Below are positions 3 through 9,954 of a stretch of DNA of 10,000 nucleotides, in pieces. The notes beneath the pieces are model-generated. The model ran no database searches, was not told where the DNA came from, and saw nothing but the letters and a program-made list of their open reading frames with translations. The stretch spans positions 1-10,000 of the forward strand of contig JAIWNN010000104.1 of assembly GCA_020216805.1 (NCBI GenBank). Reading direction: 5' to 3'. The stretch comes from Desulfarculus sp. (lineage in GTDB: Bacteria; Desulfobacterota; Desulfarculia; Desulfarculales; Desulfarculaceae). Both the position numbers and the translations under genes were made by a program. The first letter of the stretch is position 1. Every line of letters starts with the position of its first letter.

Positions 3-716
3 CCCTCGGCGGCTGCCCCCGCCGCGGCCCCGTCTCGGGCGGGAGAGCCCCAACCGGCCCCGCGCCCTGGCTCCACTTCGGCCGCCCCGGCCGAGACTGC
101 GCGCCCCCACCCGACGGCCACGCCGCCCTCGACCCTGGTCGAGGAGGAGGCCGCGGCCCTGGAGCTGGAGTTGGAGCCCGAGATCGAGCTGGAGGCGGGC
201 GAGGCCCTCGACCTGGCCGACGAGGACGATGATGACGAGGGCGGCGACCTGCGCCTGGAACTGGATCCAGCCGTGATCGAGCAGGCGCGGCAGGTCCTGG
301 CCCGGCTGGTGGAGCCCCTGGACCCCGGGGCCCGGGTGGAGGCCCAGGGCGGGCCCCAGGGCATCGAGCTGTCGGTGCAGGGTCAGGAGGCGGGCATGCT
401 CATCGGCCGGCGCGGCTCCACCCTGGAGGCCCTGCAATACCTGGTGGTGCGCATCGTCAGCCACCAGCACGGCCGGCCGGTGCGCATCGTGGTGGATGCC
501 GGCGACTACCGCCGCCGCCGCCGCGAGGCCCTGGAGGAGACCGCCCGGCGCATGGCCCAGAAGGTCAAGAGCAGCGGCCGTTCGGCGGCCATGGGCCCCC
601 TGGCCGCCCAGGAGCGCCGCCTGATCCACCTGGCCCTCAAGGCCGATCCCGAGGTGGTCACCCTGAGTCGGGGCCGGGGCGAATTGAAGAAGGTCATCAT
701 CAGCCCCAAGGTCTAG
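3..716 (+). CDS. jag: Jag/KhpB RNA-binding protein, C-terminal part (5' end outside window)
   Basis: The reading frame is open from the left edge to the TAG at 714-716, so the gene begins upstream and the usual N-terminal Jag-N domain is not visible. What is seen, in order: an Ala/Pro-rich stretch (about 3-130), a strongly acidic segment (about 130-250, with a run of Asp/Glu), a type II KH domain (about 267-500) with its GxxG loop as GRRG at 405-416, then an Arg-rich start and an R3H domain (about 507-713) whose R-x3-H pair is encoded at 615-629. The family (KhpB, SpoIIIJ-associated) binds RNA in the cytoplasm, often with KhpA, and is usually encoded next to yidC and rnpA near the origin; here it is followed by mnmE, as is common. 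The Ala/Pro and acidic linker is probably a flexible spacer. A TTG at 171 is an in-frame start candidate, but it would discard nothing but linker, and I think the longer frame is the real one. Confidence 0.93.
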   Translation, partial: PSAAAPAAAPSRAGEPQPAPRPGSTSAAPAETARPHPTATPPSTLVEEEAAALELELEPEIELEAGEALDLADEDDDDEGGDLRLELDPAVIEQARQVLARLVEPLDPGARVEAQGGPQGIELSVQGQEAGMLIGRRGSTLEALQYLVVRIVSHQHGRPVRIVVDAGDYRRRRREALEETARRMAQKVKSSGRSAAMGPLAAQERRLIHLALKADPEVVTLSRGRGELKKVIISPKV

Positions 717-829: not shown

Positions 830-845
830 CGTTTCACGTGAAACA
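830..845. other. parS: parS-type ParB binding site 1
   Basis: The perfect palindrome GTTTCACGTGAAAC occupies 831-844. With its flanks it matches 15 of 16 bases of the well-known bacterial parS sequence TGTTTCACGTGAAACA (only the first base differs). It is in the non-coding gap between jag and mnmE. In known systems ParB loads here, spreads along DNA and directs origin segregation with ParA. That it functions here is inferred from the match and from a second copy at 3010-3025. Confidence 0.85.
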
Positions 846-897
846 GGACCAGCGCGGTCAACCCCGTCCGCTGGCGGGCGAGGGCCGCCCCAGGCGG

Positions 898-903
898 TAT
901 AAT
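898..903 (+). promoter_or_regulatory. Candidate -10 element of the mnmE promoter
   Basis: A perfect TATAAT stands out in otherwise extremely GC-rich DNA. It ends seven bases before the ATG at 911, so transcription from it would begin at about 910-911. No good -35 hexamer is visible at 16-18 bases upstream. If it is active it would rule out the other in-frame ATG at 902, which lies inside the element, and would give a leaderless mnmE message. Confidence 0.5.
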
Positions 904-910
904 GCCCCCC

Positions 911-2338
911 ATGACCTGCGTTCAGCTCCCCGACGCCCGCGACACCATCGCCGCCCCGGCCACCCCGGCCGGTCCGGGCGGCATCGCCATCCTGCGGGTG
1001 AGCGGACCCCGGGCCTGGGAGGTCGGCCGCGCCCTCTTCCAACCCCGCCGGCCCTGGCCGCCCGGCGGCCCCCGGCCCTGGCGCTTCCACCTGGGCTCGC
1101 TGCTTGACGCCGACGGCCAGGCCATCGACGAGGCCCTGGCGGTCTTCTTCCGCGCCCCCCGCTCCTACACCACCCAGGACCTGGTGGAGCTGCACTGCCA
1201 CGGCGGCCCGGCCGTCCTGCGCCAGGCGCTCGATTCCGCCTTGGCCCGGGGCTGCCGCCTGGCCCGGCCGGGCGAATTCACCCTGCGCGCCTTCCTGGGC
1301 GGCCGTCTGGACCTGGGCCAGGCCGAGGCGGTGGCCGGGCTGATCGCCGCCCGCTGCCAGGGCGAGGCCCGCCTGGCCCTGGCCAACCTGACCGGCGGCC
1401 TGGCCCGGGGTCTGGCCCCGGTGCGCCAGGTTTTGCTGACCGCCGCCGCCCGGGTGGAGGCGGCCATCGACTTTGCCGAGGACCTGGCCCCGGAGGAAAC
1501 CGCCGGCCTGGAGGCCCTGGCCGCCGAGCTGGCCGCTGGCGTCCAGGAGCCCTTGGCGGAGCTGATCCGGCGCAGCCAGCGCCGCCGGGTGTTCCGGGAG
1601 GGGGCCGTGGTGGTGCTCTGCGGCCGGCCCAACGTGGGCAAGTCCAGCCTGTTCAACGCCCTCCTGGGACGGCAACGCGCCCTGGTCAGCCGCCTGGCCG
1701 GCACCACCCGCGACACCCTGGAAGAGCCCCTGGTGTTGGGTGGGGTGGCCGTGCGCCTGGTGGACACCGCCGGTCTGGGCTGGGGAGGGGAGGCTTGCCC
1801 CAGCCCGGCGGCCGAACTGGACGAATTGGGCCGGCAAGCGGCCGGCCAGGCGGTGGCCGCGGCCGACCTGCTGCTGGTGGTCATGGATGGCGGCCAGCCC
1901 CTGACCCCGGCCGACCGGGAGGTCATGGTGGCCAGCGCCGGCCGGCCGCGCCTGGTGGCGGTCAACAAGGCCGACCTGGCCCCGGCCTGGGACCTGGCGG
2001 AGCTGGGATCACCGATGGAGAATGAGCCCGTGTTGCGGGTCAGCGCCGCCCGGGGGACCGGGCTGGAGGAGCTGGCCCAGCGCCTGGGCGATGCCCTGAC
2101 CGGGGGCCAGGCCGAGCCCCAACCGGGGGAGGTTCTGGCCGGGACCCGCCAGGTGGAGGCCCTGGAGCGCTGCCGGGCGGCGGCGGAACGGGCCGGGGAG
2201 CAACTCCGGGCCGGGGCCTGGGAGCTGGTTTCGCTGGAACTGGGCGAGGCCCTGGCCGCCCTGGGCGAGGTGGACGGCCTGGGCGCGTCGGACCAGGTGA
2301 TCGAGGCGGTTTTCAGTCAATTCTGCGTGGGCAAGTGA
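911..2338 (+). CDS. mnmE: tRNA uridine-5-carboxymethylaminomethyl(34) synthesis GTPase MnmE
   Basis: MnmE works with MnmG to install the carboxymethylaminomethyl group on wobble U34 of certain tRNAs; it dimerises in a K+-dependent, GTP-driven cycle. With the start at 911 the protein has 475 residues, a normal length. The N-terminal folate-binding domain begins with the family hallmark DTIAA...GPGGIAILRVSG. The G domain has G1 GRPNVGKSS (238-246), switch I GTTRDT (264-269), G3 DTAG (285-288) and G4 NKAD (352-355). The C-terminus ends FCVGK, with the conserved cysteine near the end. ATG 902 would add only three residues; 911 suits family N-termini and the TATAAT at 898-903 better. Oddities: the switch II segment after DTAG is about seven residues longer than usual, and the residue matching catalytic Glu282 of E. 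coli appears to be Asp304. The stop is one base from the rsmG ATG, suggesting coupled translation. Confidence 0.96.
   Translation: MTCVQLPDARDTIAAPATPAGPGGIAILRVSGPRAWEVGRALFQPRRPWPPGGPRPWRFHLGSLLDADGQAIDEALAVFFRAPRSYTTQDLVELHCHGGPAVLRQALDSALARGCRLARPGEFTLRAFLGGRLDLGQAEAVAGLIAARCQGEARLALANLTGGLARGLAPVRQVLLTAAARVEAAIDFAEDLAPEETAGLEALAAELAAGVQEPLAELIRRSQRRRVFREGAVVVLCGRPNVGKSSLFNALLGRQRALVSRLAGTTRDTLEEPLVLGGVAVRLVDTAGLGWGGEACPSPAAELDELGRQAAGQAVAAADLLLVVMDGGQPLTPADREVMVASAGRPRLVAVNKADLAPAWDLAELGSPMENEPVLRVSAARGTGLEELAQRLGDALTGGQAEPQPGEVLAGTRQVEALERCRAAAERAGEQLRAGAWELVSLELGEALAALGEVDGLGASDQVIEAVFSQFCVGK
1777..1806. repeat. Inverted repeat inside mnmE switch II coding region
   Basis: GGGCTGGGG (1777-1785) and CCCCAGCCC (1798-1806) form perfect 9-bp arms around a 12-base purine-rich loop. 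The repeat encodes the extra residues after the DTAG motif of MnmE. It may be only a by-product of G/C-rich codons, or the footprint of a small palindromic insertion. Confidence 0.6.
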
Positions 2339-2339
2339 G

Positions 2340-2930
2340 ATGGCCAACGCCTCCCTCCCCCCCGCCCGGCCTCCGGAGCTGGCCCCCGCCCTGGAGCGCC
2401 TGGCCGCCGAGCTCTTGCGCTGGAACCAGCGCATCAACCTGACCGGCTACCGCGACCCGGAGGAGGTGCGGGTGGGGCTCTTCCTGGACGCCCTGGCCCT
2501 GGTGCCCCATCTGGCCGGGGATAGCCTGTTGGACATCGGCTCCGGGGCCGGGTTTCCGGGGTTGGTGCTGGCCCTGGCCCGGCCGGACCTGGCGGTGACC
2601 CTGTTGGAGCCCCGGGCCAAGCGGGTCAGCTTCCAGAAGCACGCCATCCGAACCTTGGGCCTGGGCAACGTCCGGGCGGTGCAGGGCCGGGCCGGAAACG
2701 GTCCCGACGCCGCCCTGCCGGGCGAGGTCTTCTCCACGGTGACGGTCAAGGCGGTGGGGAGCCTGGCCGACTCCCTGGCCCTGGCCCGGCCCTACCTGGC
2801 CCCCGGGGGCCGGATCCTGCTGCCCCGCGGCCGGGGGGACCGGGCGGCGGCCCTGGACGCCGGCCTGGCGGTGGTGGACTACGAGCTGCCGCCCCCGGGC
2901 GGGCGGCGGATCATCGTCCTGGCCGGCTAG
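2340..2930 (+). CDS. rsmG: 16S rRNA (guanine(527)-N(7))-methyltransferase RsmG (GidB)
   Basis: RsmG uses S-adenosylmethionine to methylate N7 of G527 in the 530 loop of 16S rRNA; its loss is linked to low-level streptomycin resistance in other bacteria. The protein has 196 residues, slightly short for the family (about 205-240). Seen: an N-terminal helix with the WNQRINLT motif (28-35), the SAM-binding motif I DIGSGAGFPG (65-74), and LLEPRAKRVSF (88-98), a family signature. The ATG begins one base after the mnmE stop, with no separate promoter, so the two are almost certainly co-transcribed. The residues before the Asp of the usual HxxDSL motif differ here (GLFLDALAL). Downstream, the common partners parA and parB are missing; the next gene is a histidine kinase on the opposite strand. 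Confidence 0.95.
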   Translation: MANASLPPARPPELAPALERLAAELLRWNQRINLTGYRDPEEVRVGLFLDALALVPHLAGDSLLDIGSGAGFPGLVLALARPDLAVTLLEPRAKRVSFQKHAIRTLGLGNVRAVQGRAGNGPDAALPGEVFSTVTVKAVGSLADSLALARPYLAPGGRILLPRGRGDRAAALDAGLAVVDYELPPPGGRRIIVLAG

Positions 2931-2946
2931 TCCAGCGCCCGGCCGC

Positions 2947-2980
2947 GGCTGGGTCACCCTCGGCCCAACCGCTTCTTTTC
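2947..2980 (+). terminator. Possible weak terminator after rsmG
   Basis: GGCTGGG (2947-2953) and CCCAACC (2964-2970) can pair with one mismatch around a 10-base loop, followed by the T-rich GCTTCTTTTC. The stem is imperfect and the T-tract interrupted, so efficiency is doubtful, but the position between convergent genes fits. Confidence 0.35.
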
Positions 2981-3009
2981 CCATGGCAAGACACCTGTCC
3001 CGCCGGTCA

Positions 3010-3025
3010 CGTTTCACGTGAAACG
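3010..3025. other. parS: parS-type ParB binding site 2
   Basis: A second exact copy of GTTTCACGTGAAAC lies at 3011-3024, matching 14 of 16 bases of the parS consensus (the two outermost bases differ). It sits between rsmG and the convergent histidine kinase gene, 16 bases beyond the kinase stop, and 2,180 bases centre to centre from the first copy. Confidence 0.83.
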
Positions 3026-3040
3026 GGAACGACCCGCCGG

Positions 3041-5452
<2,412 letters not shown>

Positions 5453-5561: not shown

Positions 5562-6215
5562 TCAAGCAAGGGGGGTTAAGCGCCCGCCGGACAGCTCCAG
5601 GACTTGGTGGCAAAGGCGACGCAGAAAGCCATGGTCGTGGGAGATAACAGCCCATGGCAACTGGCTTTTTTGCAAAACAGACTCGAAGCGCGCCTGGGTC
5701 TGGGGGTCCAGGCCGGCGGTGGGTTCGTCCAACAGCAAGGCCTGGGGCCGCAGGGCCAGGACCGTGGCCAGGGTCACCAGGCGCTTCTCGCCGCCGCTGA
5801 GCTGATACGTCACCCGCTCCGCGAACCCATCCAGCCCCAGCTCCGCCAGGGCCCGGTGGGCCCTTTCCAGGGCCTGGCCCCGCTCCAGCCCCTGGTTCAG
5901 GGGCCCGAAGGCCACGTCCTCCAAAACCGTGGGGCAAAAGAGCTGGTCGTCGGGGTCTTGAAAACAATAGCCCAACCGGGTGCGCAGGGGCGCGAAGTCC
6001 GCCTCCCGGCGCATGGCTTGACCAAACAGCTCCACCGCGCCGGCCTGGGCTGACAGCAGCCCCATGGCCAGCAGGAACAGGGTGGATTTGCCGGCCCCGT
6101 TGGGGCCCAGGATGCCCACCCGCTGCCCCTCCTCCAGGCTGAAATCCAGACCCGCGAAGACCGGCGGCCGACCGGGGTAGGCGAAGTGGATTCCCGTCAT
6201 TCGAATCAGGCTCAT
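5562..6215 (-). CDS. nikO: ECF nickel/cobalt transporter ATPase NikO (CbiO family)
   Basis: The 217-residue ABC ATPase powers the group I ECF transporter together with NikQ and NikM at the inner membrane. Seen: Walker A GPNGAGKST (37-45), Q-loop Gln86 in FQDPDDQLF (typical of ECF ATPases), signature LSGGE (139-143), Walker B LLLDEP (160-165), D-loop AGLD (167-170) and switch His193. The length is short for CbiO (often 250-280) because the protein stops soon after the H-switch, with a brief tail and no extended C-terminal domain. The ATG overlaps the nikQ stop as ATGA (6215-6212), a sign of translational coupling and strong support for this start; the frame remains open upstream through nikQ but only as a shadow. 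No clear terminator follows it. Confidence 0.94.
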   Translation of the reverse strand: MSLIRMTGIHFAYPGRPPVFAGLDFSLEEGQRVGILGPNGAGKSTLFLLAMGLLSAQAGAVELFGQAMRREADFAPLRTRLGYCFQDPDDQLFCPTVLEDVAFGPLNQGLERGQALERAHRALAELGLDGFAERVTYQLSGGEKRLVTLATVLALRPQALLLDEPTAGLDPQTQARFESVLQKSQLPWAVISHDHGFLRRLCHQVLELSGGRLTPLA

Positions 6216-6961
6216 GCCGCCAGCTCCAGCACCAGGAGCAGCGCCACCAGGAGCCCACCCCAAAGCAGGAAGTAATCGTCGCGCCGCTGCCATTGAAAAT
6301 GGTCCAGCAGCCAGTAAGTGCCCTGGAACCCCCGGCAGAGCATGGCCTGGTAGACCCGCTGGGCCCGGTCGTAGGAGCGGACCAGCAGCCCGCCGGTCAG
6401 ATAGGCGTAGGTGCGGTAGGTGTGCCAGCTGGTGCGGGGCTGGAATCCCCGCGCCCTGGCCGCCTGGTGCATGCGGTGCCACTCCCGGTGCAGAACGTGC
6501 AAGTAGCGGTAAAAGAAAAAGAAAACCTGCAGCAGCCGCGGTGAGATCCGCCAGTGGGCCAGGGCGTGGAAGACCTGGTTGACGGTGCTGGTGGCCAGGA
6601 GCAGGGTCAGCCCCAGCACGATGGCGTTGGCCTTCAGGGTGATCATCCCGGCCAGGAAGATGCCCGGGGGGTGGTGGCGCAGGCCCAGCCAGCCATCCCC
6701 GGCCGGATAGACCTGCCAGGGCAGCATCACCCACAACAGGGCGGTGAAGGCGTTGACCGCCGCCAGGCGCTTGAGCAGCTCCCGTCCCGGGAGCCTCGCC
6801 GCCAGACAGCCCGCCAGGCAAAGGCCCAGACCCGCCCCTCCCGCCCAGGCGCTCTGCCCGGTGGCCATCACCAGGCTGTAGGCCAGGGCCACCGCCAGCT
6901 TGCCGCGCGGGTCCAGACGGTGGAAGAGCGAATGGCCGTGGGCCAGCGTTTCCAGGTGCAT
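6212..6961 (-). CDS. nikQ: ECF nickel/cobalt transporter T component NikQ (CbiQ family)
   Basis: NikQ is the transmembrane coupling subunit that links the ATPase to the substrate-binding subunit NikM. The 249-residue protein has an N-terminal DPRGKL motif (17-22), several hydrophobic helices (about 22-58, 66-86, 100-125, 143-156, 230-248), and the two cytoplasmic coupling motifs of EcfT proteins, AARARGF (167-173) and AMLCRGF (206-212), in which the A-R-G type pattern contacts the ATPase groove. The ATG at 6961 has a modest GAGG about six bases upstream. It lies 26 bases beyond the large hairpin at 6988-7029, so its expression depends on read-through or on a promoter before that hairpin. The stop overlaps the nikO start. 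Confidence 0.93.
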   Translation of the reverse strand: MHLETLAHGHSLFHRLDPRGKLAVALAYSLVMATGQSAWAGGAGLGLCLAGCLAARLPGRELLKRLAAVNAFTALLWVMLPWQVYPAGDGWLGLRHHPPGIFLAGMITLKANAIVLGLTLLLATSTVNQVFHALAHWRISPRLLQVFFFFYRYLHVLHREWHRMHQAARARGFQPRTSWHTYRTYAYLTGGLLVRSYDRAQRVYQAMLCRGFQGTYWLLDHFQWQRRDDYFLLWGGLLVALLLVLELAA

Positions 6962-6982
6962 TCAGGGCCTCGCTAAGGAGGG

Positions 6983-7029
6983 AAAAACCGGGGGAAAACC
7001 CTTTTGTGGACAAAAGGGTTTTCCCCCGG
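6983..7029 (-). terminator. Perfect long hairpin with U-tract between nikL and nikQ (terminator or attenuator)
   Basis: CCGGGGGAAAACCCTTTTGT (6988-7007) is exactly repeated in inverted orientation at 7010-7029, with two bases between. On the - strand the stem is followed at once by TTTTT (6987-6983), the form of an intrinsic terminator; on the + strand no T-run follows directly. Because nikQ starts only 26 bases beyond and no promoter fits in that space, it may be a partial terminator that sets the ratio of nikKML to nikQO messages. A dispersed palindromic repeat is the alternative. Confidence 0.75.
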
Positions 7030-7048
7030 ACCCCCTTTCCGAAAAAAC

Positions 7049-7081
7049 TTTATAGGTGTTTCCCTGCGAACAAGGTTGTTC
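7049..7081 (-). promoter_or_regulatory. Candidate -10 and palindrome upstream of nikQ
   Basis: Directly after the nikL stop lies GAACAAGGTTGTTC (7068-7081), a palindrome with 6-bp arms. On the - strand a TATAAA (7054-7049) follows at 14 bases, but no acceptable -35 sits 16-18 bases before it. This AT-rich gap could carry a weak secondary promoter for nikQO with an operator; support is positional only. Confidence 0.3.
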
Positions 7082-7708
7082 TCAATTATTTTTGCGGCGC
7101 GACAGGAACCAGGCCGCCAGCCCCATCAGGCCGATAATGTAGCCGATGCCGGCCGCGATGTCATGCACCGAGACCTCCCTCTCTCCGGCCAGCTTGGCCA
7201 CCTGGGCGGTCAGGGGGGCCAGTTGGGCCTTGAGGGCCTGATCCACCACCTGGCGCAGCTCCTCCGGGCCGAGGCCGGCCCCACTCCCCCCCGGCACGGC
7301 CAGGGGGGCGGGGTTGGCCGGCGGGGTGGGCGCCGCCGGCGCCCCCGGTTGGACCGCCGCCGAGCCCAGGTCCAATTCCTCGGCGCTCATCTCGTAGCTG
7401 GCCTGGTGACCCTGGCTGGCCTTGAGCACCAGCTTCAGTGGCGGTTTCACCCCCGCCGGCAGGGGAAAGCTGAAATTCCCCTCGCCGTCGGTGTTGTATT
7501 CTCCCAGCACCTTGCCGCTGCCGTCGCTGACTTCGATGGGGCTGCTCACCGCCTTGCCGCCTCCGGCGAAATAGGCCTGGCCCCGCACCTGGCCCCCCTC
7601 CAGATAGGCGTAGAGGCCCACCTTGTGGGCCGTGGCGGCCGGCGGGACCAGCAACATCCCCAGGGTGATGGCCAGCGTCAGGCTCATCATTGCGCGGTAT
7701 CGATTCAT
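7082..7708 (-). CDS. nikL: NikL-type accessory component of nickel ECF transporter
   Basis: This 208-residue protein fits NikL, an accessory component of nickel ECF systems that replaces NikN. Seen: a signal peptide (1-27) ending PAATA, so that the mature chain would begin with His28 (HKVGLYAY); a beta-rich Ig/carboxypeptidase-regulatory-like domain (about 28-108) with the pattern of a G-x-V-L strand then TDGEGNFSF (73-81); a Pro/Ala-rich linker (about 118-147); a short helical segment (148-176); and a C-terminal membrane helix (about 184-203) followed by RRKNN on the cytoplasmic side. It should therefore present a periplasmic domain anchored in the inner membrane next to NikM. The start has a GGAG about ten bases upstream. 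The role in metal capture is inferred from family and context; the exact mechanism is unknown to me. Confidence 0.82.
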   Translation of the reverse strand: MNRYRAMMSLTLAITLGMLLVPPAATAHKVGLYAYLEGGQVRGQAYFAGGGKAVSSPIEVSDGSGKVLGEYNTDGEGNFSFPLPAGVKPPLKLVLKASQGHQASYEMSAEELDLGSAAVQPGAPAAPTPPANPAPLAVPGGSGAGLGPEELRQVVDQALKAQLAPLTAQVAKLAGEREVSVHDIAAGIGYIIGLMGLAAWFLSRRKNN

Positions 7709-7731
7709 GCCTTGTCGCTCTCCAGGGGCCG

Positions 7732-7764
7732 GCGCCCCGGAGACCGTGACGGCCCCCGGGGCGC
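7732..7764. repeat. Hairpin in the nikM-nikL gap
   Basis: GCGCCCCGG (7732-7740) and CCGGGGCGC (7756-7764) are perfect 9-bp arms around a 15-base loop in the 101-base gap between nikM and nikL. No U-tract follows on either strand, so it is not an ordinary terminator. It may protect the upstream message or mark a processing point. Confidence 0.5.
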
Positions 7765-7809
7765 TGGCCGGGTTTTGACCAGGACGATTGAGCGTGGCTG
7801 GGGCCCGGC

Positions 7810-8415
7810 CTAGCGGTCCCAGGCCAGCATCGCCGGACGCACCCGGCGCAGGAAAGCCACCGCCGCCGCCGTGACCAGGCCCTCCACCAGCATCACCGGC
7901 AGATGGGCCGCCAGGATCAGATGGGCCGCGCCCAGGAAGTCCTCCCCGGCGGTCAGAAGGCTCAGGGCCACCAGGAGGGCCGACAGGGCCACCCCCAGAA
8001 ACCCCGCCCCGAAGCCGGCCACCAGGGCCAGCTGGCTGTTGCCGCCCCGGGCCCAGGGTCCGCAGAGCCAGTGCGCCACCACGGCCGGGAAGGCCATGTT
8101 GAAGGTCGAGATCCCCAGGGTGGTCAGGCCGCCGAAGGAAAAGAGCAGGGCTTGCAGGGCCAGGGCCACGAAGATGGCCGGAAAGGCCGACCAGCCCAGC
8201 AGCAGGCCCAGCAGGCCATTCAACACCAGGTGGACCCGGGCCGGCCCGGCCGGCAGGTTGACCAGCGAGGCCACGAAAAAGGCAGCCGCCATCAGCGCCA
8301 CCTGGGGCAACCGTTCCTGATCCAGCTTGCGCAGGCCCAGGCTGATTCCGCCCACGGCCAGGGCCGCGCCGGCGACCAGGGTGGCGGCGGGCAGCACGCC
8401 CTCGGATATATGCAT
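7810..8415 (-). CDS. nikM: ECF nickel transporter substrate-specific membrane component NikM (CbiM family)
   Basis: NikM binds Ni2+ (cobalt in CbiM homologues) and carries it through the inner membrane. The 201-residue protein begins MHISEGVLP; in the known NikM structure the N-terminal amine, His2 and a second histidine coordinate the metal, so the unprocessed start at 8415 is functionally fixed. Candidate second ligand: His62 in VHLVLNG. Other family features are the Gln-containing segment LALQALLFSFGGLTTLG (85-101) and HLPVMLVEG (171-179). Hydrophobic helices run through most of the chain. An AGGTGA lies about five bases before the ATG. It follows nikK by 18 bases and is clearly in the same operon. 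The neighbours nikK and nikL favour nickel over cobalt, but the sequence alone does not settle the metal. Confidence 0.94.
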   Translation of the reverse strand: MHISEGVLPAATLVAGAALAVGGISLGLRKLDQERLPQVALMAAAFFVASLVNLPAGPARVHLVLNGLLGLLLGWSAFPAIFVALALQALLFSFGGLTTLGISTFNMAFPAVVAHWLCGPWARGGNSQLALVAGFGAGFLGVALSALLVALSLLTAGEDFLGAAHLILAAHLPVMLVEGLVTAAAVAFLRRVRPAMLAWDR

Positions 8416-8433
8416 GTTTTCACCTAGTTCCGG

Positions 8434-9207
8434 CTATTTGACCGGGTGGGCGTAGATCCAGATCACGCCGCCCACCTCCACCGCCTTGTCCTGACCGTCT
8501 TTCTGCAGCTTCTGGTCGTCTTCGGTGAGGGCCGCGAACCCCCACCAGCCCGGCCAGGGCATGGTCCAGCTGAACTGCCCATTGGCGTCGGTCTTGACCA
8601 CCTGGGCCACGTAAGCCTCGCCCGGGGCCTTGCGCTTGCCGTCGGGATTGTAGAATTCCACCTCCACGTCGGCGTTGGCCAGGGGCTGACCCTTGAAGAT
8701 CACCCGTCCGCTGAAGCTGTTGCCGGCCCAGAGCCCATAGGGACGGGTCAGGGGCATGATCTCGATCTTCTGCCCCACCGGCTGATCCCAGCCTTCCATC
8801 AGGCCCAGGGCGCTGACCACGGTCTTGGTGTAGTGGATGATGAACTTGTCCTCGGCCGGCTCCCAATAGGGGGCGGGATTCATGTAGACAATGTAGTCGC
8901 CCGGCTGCTTGATGGCCAGGCTGCCGGACCAGGTCTGGCGCTGGCCTTTTTTCTGGGCCTTGAGGCTGGGCAGCAGGTCGGTCTTCTTGCCCGCCAGCAT
9001 CACCCCGGCCTCGGCCGGCTGGGCCAGGTCCATGCCCTGGTTCTCCATGGGGTGCCAGAACAGGAAGCTCAGCCCCACGGCCTTGGGATCCTTGGCCTCC
9101 ACGGTGTTGCGCTCGGGGATGATCATGCCGAAGTGGGCCGCGGCCGGGGAAGCGGCCCAGAGCAGGGCCAGCGAAAGCACGGCGAGAGCCAACATAGCGC
9201 GACGCAT
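8434..9207 (-). CDS. nikK: NikK-type periplasmic accessory protein of nickel ECF transporter (DUF4198)
   Basis: This 257-residue protein belongs to the DUF4198 family, called NikK when linked to nickel ECF transporters. Seen: a signal peptide (1-24) ending SPAAA, with the mature protein starting at His25 (HFGMIIPERN); the family motifs FWHPMENQGMD (50-60), KFIIHYTK (about 121-128), EIMPLTRPYGL (about 149-159) and a C-terminal Ig-like half with KTDANGQFSW and WWGFAAL. No membrane anchor follows, so it should be free in the periplasm. The ATG has an excellent AGGAGG seven bases upstream. It is first in the operon, behind a promoter at 9421-9393 and a long leader. It may capture or deliver Ni2+ to NikM; this is inference from operon position and the N-terminal histidine. 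The exact biochemical role is not known to me. Confidence 0.88.
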   Translation of the reverse strand: MRRAMLALAVLSLALLWAASPAAAHFGMIIPERNTVEAKDPKAVGLSFLFWHPMENQGMDLAQPAEAGVMLAGKKTDLLPSLKAQKKGQRQTWSGSLAIKQPGDYIVYMNPAPYWEPAEDKFIIHYTKTVVSALGLMEGWDQPVGQKIEIMPLTRPYGLWAGNSFSGRVIFKGQPLANADVEVEFYNPDGKRKAPGEAYVAQVVKTDANGQFSWTMPWPGWWGFAALTEDDQKLQKDGQDKAVEVGGVIWIYAHPVK

Positions 9208-9444: not shown

Positions 9445-9657
9445 TCAGTCCAACAACCTGCGCAGCTGGTCGCGGTCGATGCCGGGCGCCCGCATGATCG
9501 CGGCCAGGGTGCCGGTTTGGATTGGGTCGTGGTCCGGAGAGGTGAGGCGTCGGTGGGGAGGCGCTCCCTGGCGCGGGATCATGTGGCTGCCCTGGTGGTG
9601 GTCGTAGTCCCAGCCCAGGCGGGCCAGGGCCTTGGCCAATCTCCGCCCGCTGACCAC
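9445..9657 (-). CDS. hicA: HicA-family mRNA interferase toxin, start codon abnormal
   Basis: HicA toxins are small double-stranded-RNA-binding-fold ribonucleases that cut mRNA and are held in check by HicB. The frame contains the family pattern almost complete: LPVVSGRRLAKALARLGW, then GSHMI with the catalytic histidine, PDHDPIQTGTLAAIM and GIDRDQLRRLLD to the TGA at 9447-9445. The typical start would be an ATG just before SRLPVVSG, overlapping the hicB stop, but that codon is ACT (9672-9670). The nearest usable in-frame start is GTG at 9657, giving 70 residues and losing only a few N-terminal residues; no good ribosome binding site precedes it. The gene may be expressed poorly or be newly inactivated. 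The downstream part lies beyond the hicB frame; 9579-9657 overlaps it. Confidence 0.65.
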   Translation of the reverse strand: MVSGRRLAKALARLGWDYDHHQGSHMIPRQGAPPHRRLTSPDHDPIQTGTLAAIMRAPGIDRDQLRRLLD

Positions 9658-9896
9658 CGGCAGACGGCTAGTTTGACCGGAATGGCCTCTCCGGGTTTGC
9701 GCAGGCTCTCCAGGTAGCCCACGATGGCCTCCTGGAGGTTGGCCTGGGCCTCCTCCAGGCTCTCGCCTTCGGAGACGCAACCCGGCAGGGACGGACAGGT
9801 GACGACGTAGCCGCCTTCCGGGTCGGGTTCGAAAACCACCCGGAACTTGATGGCGGCGCTGACGTCCTCGCTGAAGGCTTGGCGCGGCTCGGTCAC
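9579..9896 (-). CDS. hicB: HicB-family antitoxin with run-on C-terminus
   Basis: HicB binds and blocks HicA. From GTG 9896 (with GGAGGA five bases before it) the frame gives 105 residues. The core FRVVFEPDPEGGYVVTCP, then LPGCVSEGESLEEAQANLQEAI and GYLESL is a textbook short HicB fold, lacking a DNA-binding domain. Short HicB proteins usually end a few residues after the GEAIP region; here no stop appears there and the frame continues for about 27 residues of Trp/Thr-rich sequence that is simply hicA read in another frame, ending at TGA 9581-9579. This suggests the natural stop was lost. An ATG at 9926 would add ten residues, but the GTG has the much better ribosome binding site. It precedes hicA, the usual order for this subtype. 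Confidence 0.82.
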   Translation of the reverse strand: MTEPRQAFSEDVSAAIKFRVVFEPDPEGGYVVTCPSLPGCVSEGESLEEAQANLQEAIVGYLESLRKPGEAIPVKLAVCRWSAGGDWPRPWPAWAGTTTTTRAAT

Positions 9897-9925
9897 GTTT
9901 TCCTCCGTGGAGCATCTTCTTATCA

Positions 9926-9954
9926 TCTATGCTGCTTGCCTCCGATCATGACAA
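9926..9954 (-). promoter_or_regulatory. Possible hicBA promoter
   Basis: On the - strand TTGTCA (9954-9949, five of six matches) is followed after 17 bases by CATAGA (9931-9926, three of six). A start near 9919 would leave a short leader before GTG 9896 and would exclude the ATG at 9926. The -10 is poor, so this is a weak call. Confidence 0.25.

Follow-up and report, generated by a model that had tools for sequence, protein, structure and literature searches.

Putative origin-side parS sites and a separate parAB locus in Desulfarculaceae

Two copies of one 14-bp palindrome, GTTTCACGTGAAAC, lie on either side of the mnmE-rsmG gene pair of a Desulfarculus sp., and a convergent kinase gene occupies the place where parA-parB would come after rsmG. 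Are these palindromes parS sites, the sequences to which ParB binds, and if they are, where do the parA and parB genes reside and which part of the chromosome do the sites mark? The window studied here (10,000 bp) is the whole of contig C44 of a 1.83-Mb draft genome, 55% complete and divided into 171 contigs; its features around the two palindromes are collected in Table 1.

Table 1. Positions of the two palindromes and of the genes around them in the window.
Feature	Position	Strand	Basis and remarks
jag/khpB-like gene (KH + R3H domains), flanks site 1	171..716	+	Pfam; real start possibly upstream
Putative parS site 1, exact GTTTCACGTGAAAC	831..844	.	185-bp jag-mnmE gap (jag stop 716, mnmE ATG 902)
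mnmE	902..2338	+	TIGR00450, 280 bits (cut-off 252.6); Pfam
rsmG (gidB)	2340..2930	+	TIGR00138, 125 bits (cut-off 99.5); Pfam GidB
Putative parS site 2, exact GTTTCACGTGAAAC	3011..3024	.	110-bp convergent gap (rsmG stop 2930, kinase 3' end 3041)
Sensor histidine kinase gene (PAS, HisKA, HATPase_c), convergent to rsmG	3041..5452	-	Pfam

The palindromes and their setting

The two palindromes agree in every letter and lie 2,180 bases apart in two non-coding gaps, exactly as the original prediction had placed them. When up to 3 mismatches to the 14-mer are allowed, 2 matches are found in the window; 200 dinucleotide-shuffled versions averaged 0.04, and none of them (0/200) reached 2; the number of exact copies expected from base composition in the entire draft is 0.0009. 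At ≤2 mismatches the two window sites are also the sole matches in the whole draft, which thus shows no sign of the scattered copies that had been named as evidence against the original prediction. Since a reversed control pattern likewise gives 2 matches in the draft at ≤2 mismatches (and 0 at ≤1 mismatch), it is the exactness of the sites that carries the weight. Judged by sequence and conservation, both palindromes are parS sites: the view that the 14-mer is the core of the ParB-binding site is supported by its match to the parS core and by its retention across the family, described below.

The jag/khpB-like gene scores 131 bits with the NCBIfam model Jag_EloR, under the cut-off of 145. Pfam identifies the gene convergent to rsmG as a kinase gene, and neither parA nor parB occurs in the window (all of contig C44, 10,000 bp), which bears out the earlier statement that such a gene, rather than parAB, stands behind rsmG. 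Elsewhere in the window the minus strand carries a nickel/cobalt ECF transporter cluster (5562-9207), consisting of a CbiO-like protein (recognized by eye), CbiQ, NikL, CbiM and a DUF4198 protein, and overlapping ORFs at 9445-9926 resemble, by eye, a HicB/HicA toxin-antitoxin pair.

A parS-type ParB encoded on another contig

A single match to the ParB model TIGR00180 (178 bits, cut-off 58) is present in the draft, on contig C43, and parA adjoins it; the absence of any ParB gene would have told against the original prediction. The order of genes in this region is queA-like, tgt-like, secD, secF, parA, parB, a YacP-like NYN gene and plsY-like, where parA, parB and NYN are named by Pfam and the remaining genes by eye.

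Three domains of this ParB exceed the Pfam cut-offs (PF02195, PF17762 and PF23552, that is, ParB_N, HTH and C-terminal dimerisation), and its GERR sequence, an instance of the CTP-binding GxRR motif, is shared with 17 other ParBs of the family. Among solved structures matched by sequence, ParB/Spo0J chains come out best and Noc chains next. In an alignment with Caulobacter ParB, whose numbering we use, the residues at positions 173, 179, 184 and 201 are R, T, K and G, and R173 and G201 are found in 18/18 family ParBs. Because R and G at positions 173 and 201 are the residues defining parS preference in the rule set out by Jalal et al. (PMC7383237), we classify this protein, from its sequence, as a parS-type ParB.

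Some likeness to the Noc/NBS system of nucleoid occlusion is nonetheless evident: the proteins are homologous, lysine 184 is shared, and the Noc model TIGR04285 gives this ParB 231 bits, more than the 178 bits obtained with TIGR00180, yet only the TIGR00180 cut-off is passed. Lysine at two positions, 184 among them, is described as permissive for a switch to NBS in the same paper (PMC7383237). In our comparison lysine 184 is present in 18/18 family ParBs and in 6/18 of the other ParBs compared, and it is absent from the ParBs of G053, G031, G021 and G020. Under the rule as given in that source, however, Noc has Q173, K179, K184 and R201, unlike the R, T, K and G of the present protein (PMC7383237). 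A Noc/NBS identity was rejected on both counts, as 231 bits is below the TIGR04285 cut-off of 315 and the residues are R/G instead of Q/R.

The neighbouring ParA passes the Pfam cut-off for AAA_31 and no NCBIfam equivalog cut-off. The deviant Walker A sequence KGGVGKT is found in 17/18 family ParAs, a contig end truncating the remaining one (G005), and parA adjoins parB in the family loci as it does in our genome. A match to SMC was obtained in 19/19 genomes searched, above the cut-off in 17.

Positions of parS and parAB among relatives

The family set consisted of 20 genomes (G000-G019), including our own. An exact parS lies ≤2 kb from rsmG in 17/17 of the family genomes where rsmG was found, our own among them; the pieces of sequence read were centred on parS, and in the 3 family assemblies that yielded no such piece rsmG was not matched anywhere. 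G001 and G013, in which there is no parS, are not counter-examples, because rsmG too is missing from their assemblies. With ≤1 mismatch, parS was recovered in 18/18 genomes (17 family members besides our own, and G020), a set picked because an earlier scan already had a parS match in each; the sole site of G019 has 1 mismatch and lies beside the kinase gene. The kinase gene adjoins rsmG in 15/17 family genomes, the exceptions being G011, with an aldehyde-dehydrogenase-like ORF (by eye) at this position, and G006, with no kinase match. Measured between the aligned ends of the two genes, the rsmG-kinase gaps contain the exact 14-mer in 15/15 cases, with two copies in 8 of these, and no 10-mer outside parS is common to more than 3/15. 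Site 1, for its part, looks lineage-specific, as no parS was seen in the jag-mnmE gap in the other family pieces read.

Past the kinase gene, on the side away from rsmG, one-mismatch parS sites were noted in G014, G015 and G019 (L087, position 6817; L088, 10774; L092, 2356), read as GTGTCACGTGAAAC in two of the three; in G014 and G015 the kinase gene is bracketed by parS sites. An exact parS at G004:C203:1264 (L078), in a piece without mnmE, rsmG or parAB matches, stays unexplained.

A ParB above the TIGR00180 cut-off was found in 18/19 family genomes searched, G001 being the one without (the search set comprised 20 genomes, G000-G012 and G014-G020, 19 of them positive), and additional ParB-family genes exceed the cut-off in G002, G004 and G020. 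The order parA-parB-NYN is kept in 18/18 family loci and secF precedes parA in 17/18, the G005 locus being cut by the contig end within parA. At these 18 loci no parS with ≤2 mismatches was found in pieces of 3.1 to 18.7 kb (mostly 14 kb); a single parS-like word with 3 mismatches occurs in one parAB piece (L104). As judged from these gene orders, parS on the rsmG side with a separate parAB is a trait of the family Desulfarculaceae.

Distances along the chromosome can be read in the two single-contig relatives, G007 and G014. In G007 a fit to 34 stretches of 20 kb, sampled more closely around the origin, places the GC-skew switch at ~260 kb (R2 = 0.49, permutation p = 0.001), and 36 stretches place it there too. 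Next come dnaA at 273 kb and parS at 305 kb; parB lies at 1,203 kb and the terminus at ~2.04-2.18 Mb. This puts 0.90 Mb between parS and parB, with parB at about the middle of that arm. In G014 the switch falls between 4.42 Mb and 0 (46 stretches, R2 = 0.43, p = 0.0005; the fit with the first 26 stretches was weak, p = 0.077, and 20 more were added), dnaA starts at 26 bp, the parS sites are at 36-39 kb (one exact, two with 1 mismatch), and parB, at 2,859 kb, lies about two thirds of the way down its arm, 1.66 Mb from parS when measured the shorter way round. Overall, parS is 31-37 kb from dnaA in both genomes, and the skew origin, dnaA and parS coincide within ~50 kb. In the draft genome G009, parS and parB fall on separate contigs (1.54 and 0.51 Mb); provided that these are correctly assembled, at least ~0.8 Mb separates the two. 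The origin was placed by GC skew and dnaA. Consensus DnaA boxes (TTATNCACA) lent no support, as none occurred in any stretch that was scanned around the G007 and G014 origins. The skew and dnaA comparison in these two relatives, with parS at the skew switch and parB far away, argues for the segregation centre near the origin that the original prediction had proposed, our own sites being probably origin-proximal as well.

In 10 of 11 genomes searched, two full-length DnaA genes pass the TIGR00362 cut-off, with three in G002 and one in G003; examples are the pairs G007:C1:351 and 273075, and G014:C1:26 and 4106135. The G007 record begins at the second dnaA, and skew and parS favour the dnaA at 273 kb.

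Relatives of the same class have parS before parA: G053 has rsmG-parS-parA-parB-NYN (parS with 1 mismatch), G021 parS-parA-parB-NYN (2 mismatches) and G031 parS-parA-parB (exact). Among the matches listed, parS (≤1 mismatch) is 1-4 kb from a ParB in G041, G023, G028, G026, G048 and G027, and parS and ParB are on separate contigs in G039 and G058. In G020, the one genome that shares the order but not the family, parS sites occur where mnmE begins and parAB is on a different contig; the secDF and NYN neighbours of the family are not in the G020 parAB piece that was read. In a tree of ParA+ParB from 34 genomes the family forms one clade (support 100) that joins G020 (support 95), and several deep splits are weak (support 25-43). 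Because the parA-parB-NYN block of the family keeps the class order and parS is left at rsmG, the break point probably lies between parS and parA, and that parAB have moved is a fair reading of the contrast between secD-secF-parA-parB-NYN without parS in the family and parS before parA in the class relatives. Given the low deep support (25-43), the ancestral layout is read from how the genes are arranged in a few relatives.

A second, divergent ParB of G020 (L113, G020:C334) has A, R, E and G at the recognition positions, with a two-mismatch parS-like word 0.3 kb upstream. Arrays of parS were noticed in family f4 of the same class: a tandem array of 22.6 copies of a 43-bp unit in G022:C187 (L016), 5.5 copies of a 40-bp unit reaching the contig end in G032:C132 (L249), and ~20 sites (≤2 mismatches) within 2.8 kb in G027:C6 (L250). 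The G027 array sits between rsmG/parA-parB-parB2 and an aminotransferase-ilvD-like pair, and a like pair adjoins the G032 array; a unit length of 43 bp is also that of sopC, the tandem-array centromere of the F plasmid.

We have also searched 65 other genomes of the phylum (≥95% complete) for rsmG, ParB and exact parS. Contig breaks and variant forms of parS leave some of the following counts unsure. The distance from rsmG to the best ParB is ≤10 kb in 28/55 genomes having both, exact parS is ≤10 kb from the best ParB in 24/40 having both, and the 27 genomes with rsmG and parB apart have parS beside parB (14), beside rsmG only (1, G077), beside neither (5) or no exact parS (7). When parAB is away from rsmG in this phylum, parS is most often with parAB, and the clear exceptions found are Desulfarculaceae and G077.

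A probable centromere served in trans, its alternatives and its known counterparts

These results lead us to assign a probability of roughly 0.88 to the reading that the window holds the chromosome's ParB-loading centromere near the origin, within a standard ParABS system whose parAB lies elsewhere, behind secDF. It draws on the sites and their conservation, the ParB and ParA motifs, the SMC gene and, in the two single-contig relatives, a parS near the origin combined with a far-off parAB, which together support the interpretation first offered. The mechanism would be a known one, ParABS acting in trans, with the layout alone unusual: ParB from the distant locus would load on parS with CTP, slide into the flanking DNA and help SMC loading, and ParA would move the ParB-parS complex, separating the sister origins; contig C44 would lie close to the origin, as its counterparts do in the relatives. 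ParB and ParA diffuse, and their genes therefore need not be near parS. The array rsmG-parS-parA-parB-NYN would be ancestral, the parA-parB-NYN block having left it while parS stayed.

Other explanations of the palindromes can be considered in this light. If they were remnants, with parAB gone and ParB loading elsewhere, the loss of adjacency between parAB and the sites in the family would be accounted for; retention of the exact 14-mer in 15/15 rsmG-kinase gaps that have no other 10-mer common to more than 3 genomes, and the lack of an alternative exact cluster in our draft, make this highly improbable. An operator for a transcription factor, or a terminator stem between convergent genes, would suit the location of site 2 in a convergent gap, where RNA could form a 6-bp stem, and CACGTG is a common operator core. 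We find this barely credible, given that the letters of the loop vary no more than those of the stem across 15/15 gaps, that the palindrome matches the parS core and that a ParB with fitting recognition residues is encoded in the genome; the terminator or hairpin version was rejected, since there is no terminator-like element at either site, the sole one (753-770) following jag.

The remaining alternatives concern parAB. The two contigs are short (10.0 and 18.7 kb) and the spacing between sites and parB could be as little as 7 kb, so that in this species parAB might be near parS and be hidden by a contig break; against this, G005, whose ParB is 98% identical, and other family members keep rsmG-parS-kinase, the neighbours are secF-parA-parB-NYN wherever the contig reaches, and the distance is 0.90 and 1.66 Mb in the two single-contig relatives, and we give the idea very little credence. 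It is also conceivable that parAB was replaced instead of moved, the original pair being lost and a foreign one elsewhere using the same parS. The weak deep nodes of the ParA+ParB tree leave room for such an event, as does lysine 184, universal in the family and missing from G053, G031, G021 and G020, but the parA-parB-NYN order is that of G053 and G021, the family ParAB groups with that of G020 from the same order (support 95), and the same lysine recurs in 6/18 other ParBs, which renders replacement unlikely.

Returning to the preferred reading of an origin-side centromere served in trans, a likely reason for the layout would be that trans-acting proteins leave their genes free to relocate, while an additional cluster of parS in the middle of an arm would do harm. 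Caulobacter tolerates a second cluster of parS sites as long as it stays within ~500 kb around ori, and one at mid-arm is strongly disfavoured (PMC5815017); parAB of G007 and G014, at or beyond mid-arm and without parS, would be as this rule predicts. It is possible, and we propose it only tentatively, that the split between cis and trans elements is stable, parAB having moved towards mid-arm while selection held parS at the origin and kept parS from the new parAB site. If so, a whole family would serve as nature's own test of the rule that it is parS, and not parAB, that has to lie near the origin; the supply of ParA and ParB would then be linked to the secDF locus and no longer to origin copy number. 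In this family parS and parAB, which normally occur side by side, come apart, with parS at the origin and parAB about half (G007) or two thirds (G014) of the way to the terminus; parAB is a poor origin marker in draft genomes, and parS a good one in G007 and G014. In the titles and abstract openings of the literature on this group, mostly openly readable papers, chromosomal parAB far from parS is not described, which leaves its absence unproven, and a search for Desulfarculus with parB returned nothing.

Among the genomes compared, G053 is alike in having parS behind rsmG and the parA-parB-NYN block, and differs in that the block directly follows parS (core with 1 mismatch). G077, of the same phylum and another class, has two exact parS between mnmE and rsmG; its parAB is encoded on a different contig, where the 12 kb read contain no parS at ≤2 mismatches. 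Unlike the family it has 47% GC, and its layout probably arose separately, because its ParAB clusters with that of G105, apart from Desulfarculaceae (support 100).

Compared with the chromosomal ParABS systems of Caulobacter crescentus, Bacillus subtilis and Myxococcus xanthus, the parS core, the ParB N-terminal (GERR), HTH and dimerisation domains, the KGGVGKT of ParA, SMC and the origin-side parS (here from two relatives) are alike. The features of ParABS that can be read from sequence are present, namely the parS core, ParB domains with GxRR, R173/G201 and ParA beside ParB, together with origin proximity from G007 and G014. Chromosomal parAB loci are usually origin-proximal, that of M. xanthus lying ~35 kb from oriC (PMC3899335). 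This usual, non-defining feature, parAB near parS and oriC, is absent in G007 and G014, and it is here that the family parts from the three systems: its parAB has no parS beside it, and in G007 and G014 parAB lies 0.90-1.66 Mb from parS.
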